A stretch of DNA of 64,000 bases, from contig CACJHW010000002.1 of assembly GCA_902593285.1 (NCBI GenBank), forward strand, positions 186,001-250,000, written 5' to 3'. The stretch is from an uncultured Pelagibacteraceae bacterium. GTDB taxonomy: Bacteria > Pseudomonadota > Alphaproteobacteria > Pelagibacterales > Pelagibacteraceae. The notes under the pieces are model-generated. The model did not search any database. It was not told the DNA's origin and was given only the letters and a program-made list of their open reading frames with translations. Positions 3,526 to 22,833 of the stretch are shown here, one piece after another; the stretch's first letter is position 1; every line of letters begins with the position of its first letter. The position numbers and the translations under genes are program-made.

Positions 3526-4269
3526 ATGAGTATAAATACAACTCTGAATTACTCACCCAATTTTGATCCAAAAAAAAGAAAATTTAGTCAAATTAAATTT
3601 ATTATTTTCCATTACACAGGAATGAAGAATGAAAAAGATGCAATTAACCGTTTAACAGAAATTAGTTCAAAGGTCAGTAGTCATTATTTTATAAAAAATA
3701 ATGGGGAAATTATAACTTTAGTTCCCGAATCATATATTAGCTGGCATGCAGGAATTTCGACTTGGCAAAATTATAAATCAATTAATAAATACTCAATTGG
3801 TATAGAAATAAGTAATCCAGGTCATAATTATAATTATAAAAAATTTTCAAAAAAACAAATTCATTCAATATTAAAATTGACTAAATATTTAATTAAAAAA
3901 TATAAAATTAAAATTAAATTTATTTTAGGACATTCTGATATTGCACCTTATAGAAAAAAAGATCCTGGTGAAAAATTTCCTTGGAAATATTTATCAAAAC
4001 AAAAAGTTGGTTTGTGGCATAATTTAAATGAAAAAAAACTTTTCAAATTGAGAGAAAAAAAAATATATGAATACGACAAAATTAATTTTCTTAAAAATGT
4101 ATATAAAATTGGTTACTCGAGAGTATTAAATAAAAACAAAAACAAAAATAAAAATATCAAATTGCTCACAAAAGCTTTCCAGAGAAGATTTAGACAAGAT
4201 TTAGTTAATGGAATAATTGATGAAGAGTGTTTATTAATAAGTCAAAAACTTGCTAAAAATCTAAAATAA
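3526..4269 (+). CDS. N-acetylmuramoyl-L-alanine amidase (Amidase_2, AmiD-like)
   Basis: IIFHYTGM, SSHYFIKNNGEI, WHAG, IGIEISNPGH and GHSDIAPYRKKDPGEKFPW motifs. Confidence 0.9.
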   Translation: MSINTTLNYSPNFDPKKRKFSQIKFIIFHYTGMKNEKDAINRLTEISSKVSSHYFIKNNGEIITLVPESYISWHAGISTWQNYKSINKYSIGIEISNPGHNYNYKKFSKKQIHSILKLTKYLIKKYKIKIKFILGHSDIAPYRKKDPGEKFPWKYLSKQKVGLWHNLNEKKLFKLREKKIYEYDKINFLKNVYKIGYSRVLNKNKNKNKNIKLLTKAFQRRFRQDLVNGIIDEECLLISQKLAKNLK

Positions 4270-4309
4270 TATTCCTTGAAAATTTATTTTTAAGTAATAA
4301 ATTAATTCC

Positions 4310-4664
4310 GCCAGATAAATGACTTATCGCTTTAAGTTTGCTTAAAGAGGAAAGTCCGGGCTCTACAAGGACACAGTGCCAGGTAATGCCTGGCGGGGGA
4401 AACCCTAGGGATAGTGCCACAGAAAATAAACCGCCATAACATGGCAAGGGTGAAAAGGTGTGGTAAGAGCACACCGGTTCTATTGGTAACAATGAACGCT
4501 GGAAAACCCCACTGGGAGCAAGACTAAGTAGAGATGACATTGTTTAATAACTAAAAGCCGTCCTTGGCTAGTCATCAGGGTTAGTTGCTTGAGCTTAAGA
4601 GTGATCTTGAGCCTAGATAAATGATAAGTTTAAACGACAGAACCCGGCTTATAGTTTATCTGGC
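4310..4664 (+). ncRNA. rnpB: RNase P RNA (bacterial class A)
   Basis: Conserved GAGGAAAGTCCGGGCTC, ACAGAAAATAAACCGCC, and 3' GACAGAACCCGGCTTATAG; terminal helix GCCAGATAAA...TTTATCTGGC. Confidence 0.95.
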
Positions 4665-4847
4665 AAACTTATTCACACTATAAAATTTTACATTAATCAA
4701 ATGTTCTTATTTAGATTGAATATTGAGTCTCTTATGTTTTTTTTTAATTTTTAATAGAAAGCAAATCCTCTTAGAAAAGAGGTCTCTAATAAATTTTAGT
4801 ATTAAAAAAACCTCTATCTATAGGCAGAATTTAACTAAATTCAGAGT

Positions 4848-4918: not shown

Positions 4919-5386
4919 ATGTTTTTATCTACTTACGAAAACAAATTAGACAAAAAGGGGAGAGTGTCTGTGCCTGCTAGTTTCAGGTCATATGTATCAA
5001 ATTTAGGATACAATGGTGTTATTTGTTATCCATCTTTTAATAACCCCTCAATAGAAGCATGTTCTCAAGATAGAATTGAAAAAATTTCTTCAGCAATTGA
5101 CACTTTAAATCCTTTTGAGGAAAAAAGAGATTACTTTGCTACATCAATATTAGCCGAAAGTACTAATTTACAATTCGATAGTGAAGGTAGAATTTCACTT
5201 TCATCAAAATTATTAAAACATGCAAAAATAAAAAATAGCATGTTATTTGTTGGTCAAGGTCAAACATTCCAAATATGGGAACCAGCAGCATTTGAAAAAT
5301 TTAAGACATCAGCAAGAAAAAAAGCAAATATAAATCGAGCAAGTCTTAAATGGGAAAAACACTTAAACAACAATGAGGGGAAATAA
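4919..5386 (+). CDS. mraZ: Transcriptional regulator MraZ
   Basis: [24 protein letters not shown]-terminus; position at head of dcw cluster. Confidence 0.95.
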
Positions 5387-5387
5387 G

Positions 5388-6872
5388 ATGACAATTAACT
5401 TTAAAGCACCAGAAATTAAAGAGTTACAGCCACGACTATTAGTATTGGGAGTTGGTGGAGCAGGCGGAAATGCAATCAATGAAATGATAGAAAATAATCT
5501 ACAAGGGGTAGAATTTATTGCTGTAAATACTGATGCTCAAGACTTAAAGCTAAGTAAAGCAAAAACAAGAATTCAAATTGGTTTAAATTTAACAAAAGGT
5601 TTAGGAGCAGGAGCAAAACTTGACATTGGTCAGGCTGCTGCTGATGAATCTTTAAATGAAATTGTAAATACACTTCAAGGTGCAAATATGGTTTTTATTG
5701 CAGCTGGTATGGGTGGTGGAACGGGCACTGGTGCTGCACATGTCATCGCGAGAGCTGCTAAAGAATTAAATATCTTAACTGTGGGTGTTGTGACTCTTCC
5801 ATTTTTATATGAAGGCCCCTCTAGAATGAGAAGAGCACAACAAGGTTTGGAAGAACTAAGAAAACATGTTGATACCATAATTGTTATTCCTAACCAAAAC
5901 CTATTTAAAATAGCTAATGAACAGACAACTTTTGAAGAGTCATTTAACTTATCAAATAATGTTTTAATGCATGGTGTTCAAAGTATCACTGATTTGATGG
6001 TTAGACCCGGATTAATCAATTTAGATTTTGCTGATGTTGAAACTGTTATGGCAGCAATGGGTAAAGCCATGATGGGAACTGGTGAAGCGGAAGGAGAAGG
6101 TAGAGCTCTTAAAGCAGCAGAGATGGCAATCAGTAATCCATTAATAGATGATTATACTTTAAAAGGTGCAAAGGGTTTATTAGTAAATATTACTGGTGGT
6201 AAAGATCTTAAACTTTTTGAAGTTGATGAAGCTGTAAATAAAGTAAGAGCAGAAGTTGATCCTGAAGCAGAATTAATTATTGGTGCGATTACTGACACAG
6301 AACTTGATGGAAAAATGAGAGTTTCAATTGTTGCAACTTCTTTAGACGGTCAGCAGCCTGAGTCTAAATCAGTTGTGAATATGGTTCACAGAATCCAAAA
6401 CCGTAATCCAGGTTACTCTGATTTTTCAAACATAGGATCATCTCAATCATTCAATTTTTCAAATACAATAACAACAAACCCAATTACACATGGCGCCAAT
6501 GCTTTAAAACTTGAAAATGAGATTATCCAAGAGCAACATGCTGAAAGTTCTCATAATCAAATTATGAATGAAGAGGTTGTTCAAAATACTAGCATGGATA
6601 CTGAAAGTATAGTTGAAGACAATTCAGTTAATGAAATGGAAAAATCTTTTGCACAAGAGGCTTTGGAAACTAATCATGAAGAAACCCAAGAGAATAATAT
6701 TGATGAAAAGGTTTCTAATGATCTTAAAGAATTCGGAGTTGATTCTGATGCGCCAGATTTATTTAGTTCAGAAACCGAAACCTCAAGTTCAGATGAACTT
6801 TTATCTTCTGACAATGAGGAAGAAGAAGATGATCTTGAGATACCAGCATTCTTAAGAAGACAAAAAAATTAA
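5388..6872 (+). CDS. ftsZ: Cell division protein FtsZ
   Basis: Tubulin signature [19 protein letters not shown]-terminal conserved peptide [11 protein letters not shown]; start taken as MTINFKAPE. Confidence 0.98.
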
Positions 6873-19587: not shown

Positions 19588-20502
19588 TTGAAAAAAAAAG
19601 TACTTATACTATCAGGTGGAATTTCTAAAGAGAGATTAATTAGTCTTGATACAGGAAGTCAAGTTTTTAAAGAATTAAAAAAAAATGGTTATAGAGTAAA
19701 AATTTCTGAACCGGATAATAATTTAGAAAAAAATATAAAGATATTTAAGCCAAATGTGATCTTTAATGCTTTACATGGTCAATTTGGGGAGGATGGATAT
19801 ATTCAAACTATATTAGATAAATTTAAAATTCCATATACTCATTCAGGTGTAATAGCATCTTCAATAGCTATGGATAAAGAAATTTCAAAAAAATTATTTA
19901 TTAAAAATAAAATTAAAACCCCAAAATTTTTTACATATTCTTATGACATTGCAAAATCTAATTTATTAAAGAAAATCAACAAAGACTTAAGATTTCCAGT
20001 TGTAATTAAACCTTTGAATGAAGGCTCGAGTGTAAATGTCTATATAAGTAGTAAAAAGACTTTAAATAAAATTCTTTACAAACTGAAAGTTTATAAAAAA
20101 GTATTAATTGAGGAATTTATTGGAGGAAGAGAAATACAAGTTGCGATTATGGGTGATAAAAAATTAGGAGCAATTGAACTGAAACCCAAAAGAAAATTTT
20201 ATGATTACCAAGCAAAATATGACTCAAAATCTAAAACACAACACATTATCCCTGTAGATTTATCTAAATCTAAGTTTAATAAGGTAATGGATATAGCTTA
20301 TAAAGCTCATAAAATTATTGGCTGCAGAGGAGTAACCAGGTCAGATTTTAAATTTTTCAATGGAAATTTTTATTTACTAGAACTTAATACACAGCCAGGA
20401 ATGACTAAATTATCATTAGTGCCAGAAATAGCATTATACAAAGGTATAAGCTTTTTAAAATTAATTGAATGGATGTTGAAAGATGCATCAAAGAAAAAAT
20501 AA
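19588..20502 (+). CDS. ddl: D-alanine--D-alanine ligase (TTG start)
   Basis: ALHGQFGEDGYIQTILDKFKIPYTHSGVIAS, LLELNTQPGMTKLSLVPE. Confidence 0.94.
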   Translation: MKKKVLILSGGISKERLISLDTGSQVFKELKKNGYRVKISEPDNNLEKNIKIFKPNVIFNALHGQFGEDGYIQTILDKFKIPYTHSGVIASSIAMDKEISKKLFIKNKIKTPKFFTYSYDIAKSNLLKKINKDLRFPVVIKPLNEGSSVNVYISSKKTLNKILYKLKVYKKVLIEEFIGGREIQVAIMGDKKLGAIELKPKRKFYDYQAKYDSKSKTQHIIPVDLSKSKFNKVMDIAYKAHKIIGCRGVTRSDFKFFNGNFYLLELNTQPGMTKLSLVPEIALYKGISFLKLIEWMLKDASKKK

Positions 20503-21154
20503 AAAAATTCTAATTTATTTCTTTTTATTAATAATTTTTTCGTCAATTGGTAACGACAAAATTAATAATTTTAAATTTAAAAAAATAGAAAATATAAATA
20601 TTTTTGGATTAGATGAAAAAAATAATCAAATTCTTTTGAATAAATTGAAAGATTTGAATTTAGGAAATATTTTTTTTATTAATAAAAAAAAAATTGAAAA
20701 ATTGATTAATTCAAACTCTTTAATTGAGAGCTATATAGTATTTAAAGAATATCCATCCACTTTAAATATTAGAATTGATAAAACGAAATTTTTTGCAAAA
20801 ATAAATGATAATGGTAAAAATTATCTCATTGGATCAAATGGTAAATTAACCCTAATTGACTCTGGTTACAATCAATTACCTTATATTTTTGGTAAACCTA
20901 ACGTTCAAGAATTTTTAAAATTTAAAAAAATTATTGATAGGTCTAAATTTTCATATAATGAAATAAAAAATATATATTTTTTTTCATCAAAAAGATGGGA
21001 CTTAAAGTTTCATGACAATATTTTATTAAAATTACCAAATAGTTTAACACAAGAAACTTTGGATAATTTGTATGATTTTTTAGAAAATTATAATGGAAAA
21101 AACTTTAATATTGTTGATGCAAGATTGGAAAATAAGATTGTTTTAGATGAATAA
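20483..21154 (+). CDS. ftsQ: Cell division protein FtsQ
   Basis: N-terminal TM, POTRA/FtsQ-like region (IENINIFGLDEKNNQ...), located after ddl. Confidence 0.75.
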   Translation: MHQRKNKKILIYFFLLIIFSSIGNDKINNFKFKKIENINIFGLDEKNNQILLNKLKDLNLGNIFFINKKKIEKLINSNSLIESYIVFKEYPSTLNIRIDKTKFFAKINDNGKNYLIGSNGKLTLIDSGYNQLPYIFGKPNVQEFLKFKKIIDRSKFSYNEIKNIYFFSSKRWDLKFHDNILLKLPNSLTQETLDNLYDFLENYNGKNFNIVDARLENKIVLDE

Positions 21155-21848
21155 AGAGAATGAATTACAATGTTACTTAAGTGTTTCTCCAAATAAATAT
21201 GGAATATATTTGTTTGATACAAAAAATTTAACAAATTTATATAAAGAGGAAATTATCTTGAATAATGATACGAACTATCAAAATCATGATAAATTAAAAA
21301 AATTTCTTGATGATAATATATTTAAAATTGAAAAATTAAGCGGAAAATTTATAGAAAGTATATATCTTGTACTTGAAGATAAAAAAATTTTTAATCTAGA
21401 AATTGGAATTAAAAAAAAAAATTACAATATTTCAGTCACAAAAGAATATTTAGAAAATTCACTTGTTGAAGTTAAAGATTTATTTAGAGAGAGTTATCAT
21501 AACCAAGAAATTCTTCATATGATGATAAATAAATATTTTATGAATGGTGAGCCTTATTCATTATTTGTAGAAAATTTAAAAACTGACAATTTTGGTTTGG
21601 AAATTAATTTTAAATCAATTTCAAGAAATACTATTTATGATTTAAATAAAATTTTAGAAAATTATCAAATTAAAATAACAAAATTTCTAGACGGAAGTTA
21701 TGTTAAAGCTAATTTTTCAAAGGATATAGAGTTAGCAGAAATGTCTTATAAAATTTTGAGTGGCTATAATCAAAATGAAGTTATTTTTGTTCCAAAAAAT
21801 ACTAGAAAATTAGCTTTTTTTGAAAAATTTTTTCAACTATTTAGTTAA
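21147..21848 (+). CDS. Short FtsA-like protein (233 aa) in ftsA position
   Basis: Syntenic ftsA slot between ftsQ and lpxC; N-terminal and 1C-like pattern (KLSGKFIESIYLVLEDKKI, YHNQEILHMMINKYFMNGEPYS); C-terminal amphipathic helix RKLAFFEKFFQLFS; lacks most of the ATPase core. Confidence 0.55.
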   Translation: MNKENELQCYLSVSPNKYGIYLFDTKNLTNLYKEEIILNNDTNYQNHDKLKKFLDDNIFKIEKLSGKFIESIYLVLEDKKIFNLEIGIKKKNYNISVTKEYLENSLVEVKDLFRESYHNQEILHMMINKYFMNGEPYSLFVENLKTDNFGLEINFKSISRNTIYDLNKILENYQIKITKFLDGSYVKANFSKDIELAEMSYKILSGYNQNEVIFVPKNTRKLAFFEKFFQLFS

Positions 21849-21912: not shown

Positions 21913-22833
21913 GTGTCTTATTTAACTCAAAAAACCATTAAAGAAAATGTTTCCTTTAGTGGAATAGCTCTTCATACTGGTATAAATGTAAATCTATGCA
22001 TCAAACCTGCTGAGATTAATCATGGTATAGTTTTTAAAAGAATTGATTTAAAACAGAATAATTTGGTTTATCCAAATTTCATGAATGTAACCAACACATC
22101 ACTAAACACTACTATTGAAAATGAGTTTGGAGCAAAAGTTTCAACTATTGAACATTTAATGGGAGCTTTGTTTGGTTTGGGAATAGATAATGCTTTAATT
22201 GAAATTGATAATGAGGAAGTTCCAATACTTGATGGATCTGCTATCGAGTTTATAAGAAAAATAAAGTCAGTGGGATTAAATATTAGCAACGCACCCATAA
22301 AAATTATTAAAATAAATAAAGAAGTTAATTATTCCGATGGTAGTAGATATATTTCCATAAAACCTTCTACATTGAGTTTAGATATTGATTTTGAACTTAA
22401 ATATCAAAATGAAATTATAGGAAATCAGAGAAATAAAGTAAAAGTATATGAGGATGACTTAACTGATATTTATAATTCAAGAACTTATTGTTTGTATGAG
22501 GATATTGAAATGATAAAAAAAAATGGATTAGCAAAGGGTGGAAGTTTAGATAATGCAGTGGTTGTTAAGGGTAAAGATATTTTAAATCCAGAAGGATTAA
22601 GAAATAAGAAAGAATTTGTGAATCATAAAATATTAGATTGCATTGGAGATCTGTATACATGTGGATACAGATTAGTAGCGAGCATCAAGTGTTCACAAGG
22701 CGGTCATTATCTAACTAATCAATTATTAAGAAATATTTTTAAGCATAAAGAAAATTTTTCAATTTTAGAAATTAAAGAAAAAAATCTTCCCCAAACGCTC
22801 ATAAATAAAAGTCTTCTAAAAGAAATTGCTTAG
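21913..22833 (+). CDS. lpxC: UDP-3-O-acyl-N-acetylglucosamine deacetylase (GTG start)
   Basis: TIKENVSFSGIALHTGINVNL, STIEHLMGAL, EFVNHKILDCIGDLYTCGYRL. Confidence 0.95.
   Translation: MSYLTQKTIKENVSFSGIALHTGINVNLCIKPAEINHGIVFKRIDLKQNNLVYPNFMNVTNTSLNTTIENEFGAKVSTIEHLMGALFGLGIDNALIEIDNEEVPILDGSAIEFIRKIKSVGLNISNAPIKIIKINKEVNYSDGSRYISIKPSTLSLDIDFELKYQNEIIGNQRNKVKVYEDDLTDIYNSRTYCLYEDIEMIKKNGLAKGGSLDNAVVVKGKDILNPEGLRNKKEFVNHKILDCIGDLYTCGYRLVASIKCSQGGHYLTNQLLRNIFKHKENFSILEIKEKNLPQTLINKSLLKEIA

Follow-up and report, generated by a model that had tools for sequence, protein, structure and literature searches.

FtsA is regarded as an actin-like ATPase, and its filaments and grip on FtsZ as central to division. 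In E. coli, its 1C subdomain alone reportedly interacts with FtsN and late septation proteins, as work by Busiek in 2012 and by Corbin in 2004 is said to have found. Subdomain IIB binds the C-terminal peptide of FtsZ (PDB 4a2a). The longitudinal contact of FtsA filaments is formed between IIA and IIB, and the cleft between IA and IC binds the tail of FtsN in Vibrio FtsA and, likewise, PilN in PilM (PMC7613929). PilM, with its IC-like domain, and the cytoplasmic domain of GspL (EpsL) have folds related to that of FtsA and bind tails or partners at the membrane, albeit in other systems and other gene contexts.

The SAR11 genus Pelagibacter is among the commonest bacteria of the ocean. Most of its genomes encode an FtsA of about half the usual size, a form that appears to be undescribed; no paper on FtsA in SAR11 was found in the literature searched. 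We came to it through a window of DNA, 64,000 nucleotides in length, from a Pelagibacteraceae assembly of 1.04 Mb (37 contigs, 79% complete). As an earlier interpretation made without database searches (hereafter the sequence-only reading) had claimed, with exact coordinates, a single ORF of 233 residues lies here between ftsQ and lpxC, both of which are identified by Pfam; its start codon is ATG. The locus comprises the following features, the domain boundaries being those of the predicted models and the alignment:

5373..6872, + strand: ftsZ with intact C-terminal peptide (tail comparison with relatives)
20483..21154, + strand: ftsQ (Pfam POTRA_1 and FtsQ_DivIB_C)
21147..21848, + strand: mini-FtsA gene, 233 aa, FtsA domain I (IA and IC) and C-terminal membrane helix (ORF, alignment, AF2 model, PDB matches)
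21165..21389, + strand: N-terminal part of IA, aa 7-81, three strands, helix, strand (AF2 model; profile match to E. coli FtsA 59-195)
21180..21194, + strand: eroded phosphate-1 loop, aa 12-16, SVSPN as against DxGSS in long relatives (alignment)
21390..21623, + strand: IC (SHS2-type) domain, aa 82-159 (boundaries from AF2 model; profile; PF02491 in relatives)
21624..21710, + strand: second part of IA, aa 160-188 (AF2 model; equivalent to long-form elements H154-165 to H177-188)
21711..21731, + strand: junction, aa 189-195, marking the absence of some 140 residues of the long-form domain II (IIA/IIB) (alignment, AF2 models)
21732..21758, + strand: C-terminal IA helix, aa 196-204 (AF2 models; equivalent to long-form H329-340)
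21816..21839, + strand: predicted amphipathic membrane-targeting helix, aa 224-231 (AF2 model, hydrophobic moment, conservation)
21913..22833, + strand: lpxC (PF03331, E 1.3e-92)

The mini-ftsA start overlaps the ftsQ stop by 8 bases, and lpxC begins 64 bases past the gene, a gap of 61-80 nt in almost every relative, whichever form it carries. Its place beside ftsQ in the dcw cluster is that of ftsA. The gap before lpxC contains no ftsA remnant, no canonical ftsA was found elsewhere in the source genome, and no frameshift is involved in the short length of the gene there, so that this part of the sequence-only reading holds, including against two of the findings that it had named as refuting it.

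Since the window protein alone matches nothing in Pfam, its relatives were needed to assign it to a family. A profile built from the mini proteins has FtsA structures as its four best PDB matches, over residues 59-195 of E. coli FtsA (E 0.0011), while 28 of 34 minis singly match the FtsA family TIGR01174 (best E 5.9e-13) and 14 of 34 match PF02491 (SHS2_FTSA). The AF2 model of the mini protein (pLDDT 87.7, pTM 0.81) points the same way: its 19 best PDB matches in Foldseek are all FtsA, headed by T. maritima FtsA with FtsZ peptide (E 3.9e-11), whereas PilM and GspL match more weakly (E 5e-6 and worse). The claimed kinship with FtsA is confirmed by these profile, family and model matches, the structural comparison being one of the checks that had been proposed and its outcome the opposite of the third refuting finding. 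With FtsA at large (TIGR01174; PDB 1e4f, 4a2a, 7q6d, 7q6i), mini-FtsA shares sequence and fold similarity across domain I, the position after ftsQ, a predicted IA domain with IC (SHS2) inserted and a C-terminal amphipathic helix. It differs in its length of 233 rather than about 400 residues and in having neither IIA/IIB nor the phosphate-1 motif nor an FtsZ-tail site of the known kind.

Other Pelagibacter genomes carry a long FtsA at the same place, which matches FtsA in Pfam and PDB and whose AF2 model (pLDDT 83.4, pTM 0.83) is likewise matched best by FtsA. Compared with it, the mini model contains 13 of 13 domain-I elements in the same order; the next 10 consecutive elements of the long form are absent, after which come the final IA helix and the membrane helix. 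In the alignment, the mini protein spans IA and IC; the residues preceding IIA are followed directly by the last IA helix, and the amphipathic helix at the end is shared with the long form. Judged by models and alignment, the missing block is exactly domain II, cleanly removed. The long Pelagibacter forms (e.g. L067, 369 aa) share the locus, the C-terminal motif, the membrane helix and about 28-32% identity in domain I with the mini, and unlike the mini they keep domain II and all three ATP motifs. The sequence-only reading was thus right about the retained 1A/1C region, and it overlooked two things, namely that the loss is exactly domain II and how widespread the mini is.

It had also claimed that the phosphate-binding loops of the ATPase site are lost, and this stands: none of 40 minis has the phosphate-1 D-x-G motif, as against 22 of 22 long Pelagibacter forms, and the phosphate-2 and adenosine motifs fall within the missing domain. 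In sister lineages within Pelagibacteraceae (L105-L108, L220, L221), a full-length FtsA of 394-405 aa retains domain II and has no recognisable phosphate or adenosine motifs; by sequence, these proteins are likely pseudo-ATPases. It therefore seems that the family has abandoned nucleotide binding on more than one occasion.

The C-terminal amphipathic helix, another element of the sequence-only reading, is upheld at a shorter length. For the C-terminus LAFFEKFFQLFS, the hydrophobic moment is 0.48, compared with 0.26 for shuffles (p 0.046), and F225 and F229 are invariant in 34 minis. The moment of the last 16 residues, the stretch originally proposed, is not significant (p 0.33), so the putative membrane helix is probably some 8-12 residues long, in agreement with the model (224-231).

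A search of 60 related genomes showed that, within a single genus, the same locus encodes proteins of two length classes, about 233 and about 370-400 aa; G066, for instance, has the long form and G067 the mini. Apparent forms of 169-179 aa in G176, G215 and G219 are due to contig ends and do not constitute a real length class. For a broader count by hand, we used the source genome and 114 Pelagibacter genomes at least 90% complete, applying the genus label on the strength of relatives that carry the same gene, located with LpxC as neighbour query and assigned to Pelagibacteraceae or Candidatus Pelagibacter, by which the source genome, too, counts as SAR11. A full-length mini (220-245 aa) is present in 65 of these 115 genomes, which answers the question of conservation that had been raised, a long FtsA (370-401 aa) in 30, and a cut or frameshifted mini in 13. 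The remaining 7 gave no match: 5 also have no lpxC, 1 is truncated where its contig begins, and G071 retains the final part of a long form. Chance is excluded, because the mini is conserved in at least 64 other species. Pairs of minis have dN/dS values of 0.11-0.26, compared with 0.21-0.28 for long pairs, and the outstanding conserved residues are E62, K63, H124, Y185, G206, N208, E211 and the phenylalanines of the membrane helix. Mini-ftsA is an intact, selected gene.

Nevertheless, the domain loss, the loss of motifs and the fast sequence evolution could suggest an FtsA that is decaying under genome streamlining and of which a remnant with little or no function is left, particularly as the ATP motifs are also lost in the full-length FtsA of sister genera. 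Two copies, moreover, carry a single frameshift in a run of eight to nine A in the region of the first helix (L204 in the complete genome G012, L203 in G185). These frameshifts could reflect sequencing error, transcript slippage or gene loss, and could mean that the gene is dispensable in those two genomes, which would also count against the explanation that we prefer below. However, an intact ORF of the same length in 65 genomes, purifying selection as strong as in the long forms, a confidently predicted fold and a conserved membrane helix make decay improbable, and the gene is absent only where a contig is cut or where the region including lpxC is missing. Still less probable is a two-piece FtsA whose domain II has moved to another gene, an idea with nothing beyond logic in its favour. 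We searched 24 mini genomes, of which five are single-contig and 99-100% complete, for the domain II family PF14450, which covers IIA/IIB. This gave only MreB- and DnaK-sized ORFs above threshold and a single weak match below it (32 positions, E 0.03, in a 1139-aa frame); we rejected these matches as a hidden domain II, as MreB and DnaK-sized frames explain them. The same search does detect FtsA in long-form genomes, and it is sensitive but imperfect, because three mini genomes gave no match at all, not even to MreB. The two-piece arrangement is thus nearly refuted and would survive only if the fragment had diverged beyond the reach of PF14450.

The explanation that we consider likely is that mini-FtsA is a derived FtsA minus domain II, which acts as a membrane-bound IA-IC receptor with no ATP bound and no actin-like filament. 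It would sit on the inner membrane via its last helix, as sequence and model suggest, and would bind no nucleotide; since the IIA-IIB longitudinal contact is absent from it, the known filament should not form. By analogy, its IA-IC cleft may hold the cytoplasmic tail of a bitopic division protein. A membrane-bound IA-IC unit seems reasonable as a minimal receptor because this cleft binds FtsN in Vibrio FtsA and PilN in PilM, and because 1C alone is reported to interact with its partners. We infer the adaptor function, the non-polymerisation and any binding of FtsZ from these comparisons. What counts against the receptor is that no candidate partner emerged: none of the complete Pelagibacter genomes tested, whether of the long or the mini type, has a clear FtsN, and the SPOR matches in mini genomes look like lipoproteins and were rejected as FtsN.

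FtsZ itself would be tied to the membrane either through a novel surface on mini-FtsA or through a different anchor that recognises the FtsZ tail. The sequence-only reading had pointed to a conserved FtsZ tail, and rightly so, as FtsZ ends in EIPAFLRRQ in 30 of 30 genomes examined, mini and long, and the 11-residue peptide of the source FtsZ is found in nearly all; something must therefore still read it. SepF, ZipA and FtsX gave nothing over the cut-off in the complete Pelagibacter genomes tested, mini or long. Those FtsX matches that fall below it, most of them of about 400 aa or more, are probably LolC/E. The anchor should consequently be a new surface of the mini or of an unfamiliar kind, and the divisome in Pelagibacter is possibly unusually reduced. 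That mini-FtsA is still the main anchor, with a new surface of IA or IC binding the tail, is an option to which we give somewhat less than even weight: the conserved tail in mini genomes, the lack of SepF, ZipA and FtsX matches in either group and the strongly conserved membrane helix argue for it, whereas IIB, the known tail-binding subdomain (PDB 4a2a), is absent and the tail may be conserved for ClpX or another anchor instead.

The receptor explanation is compatible with more than one origin of the short form. Five flanking proteins yield trees that require five changes and reject a single short-form clade (p 3.6e-59), which would imply at least five separate deletions. By contrast, the domain I tree places all short forms on one side of a branch, with weak support (44/40), and rejects the grouping of L072 with its species-tree partner L077 (p 0.02), and the junctions lie at the same place and leave nearly equal lengths. 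We therefore regard separate deletions only as a tentative proposal; domain II may have been deleted once, the allele later passing between lineages by exchange, or more than once at an identical domain border.

There is, in our estimate, an even chance that a free-living, abundant lineage relies for division on a single-lobe FtsA which does without ATP, polymerisation and the binding of FtsZ via IIB. If so, the irreplaceable job of FtsA would be that of a membrane-bound IA-IC receptor, and another route, one that still reads the conserved tail of FtsZ, would do the anchoring. A natural deletion separates the functions of FtsA here, and the half that was kept is under selection in numerous species of this dominant ocean genus. 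The deletion directly raises the question what ATP and polymerisation are for in FtsA. The mini-carrying bacteria are left without a known membrane anchor for FtsZ among the families sought (SepF, ZipA, FtsX and full FtsA).

The wider cluster runs in the order that we take, partly from general knowledge of the gene names, to be mraZ-ftsZ-rsmH-ftsL-ftsI-murEF-mraY-murD-ftsW-murG-murC-murB-ddl-ftsQ-mini-lpxC. Instead of following ftsA, ftsZ lies directly 3' of mraZ, about 15 kb upstream of ftsA, and relatives in which a single contig carries both genes keep this spacing. A class A RNase P RNA (4311-4667) lies shortly before mraZ in the window; it is overlapped by a minus-strand ORF (4253-4540) that is probably spurious.
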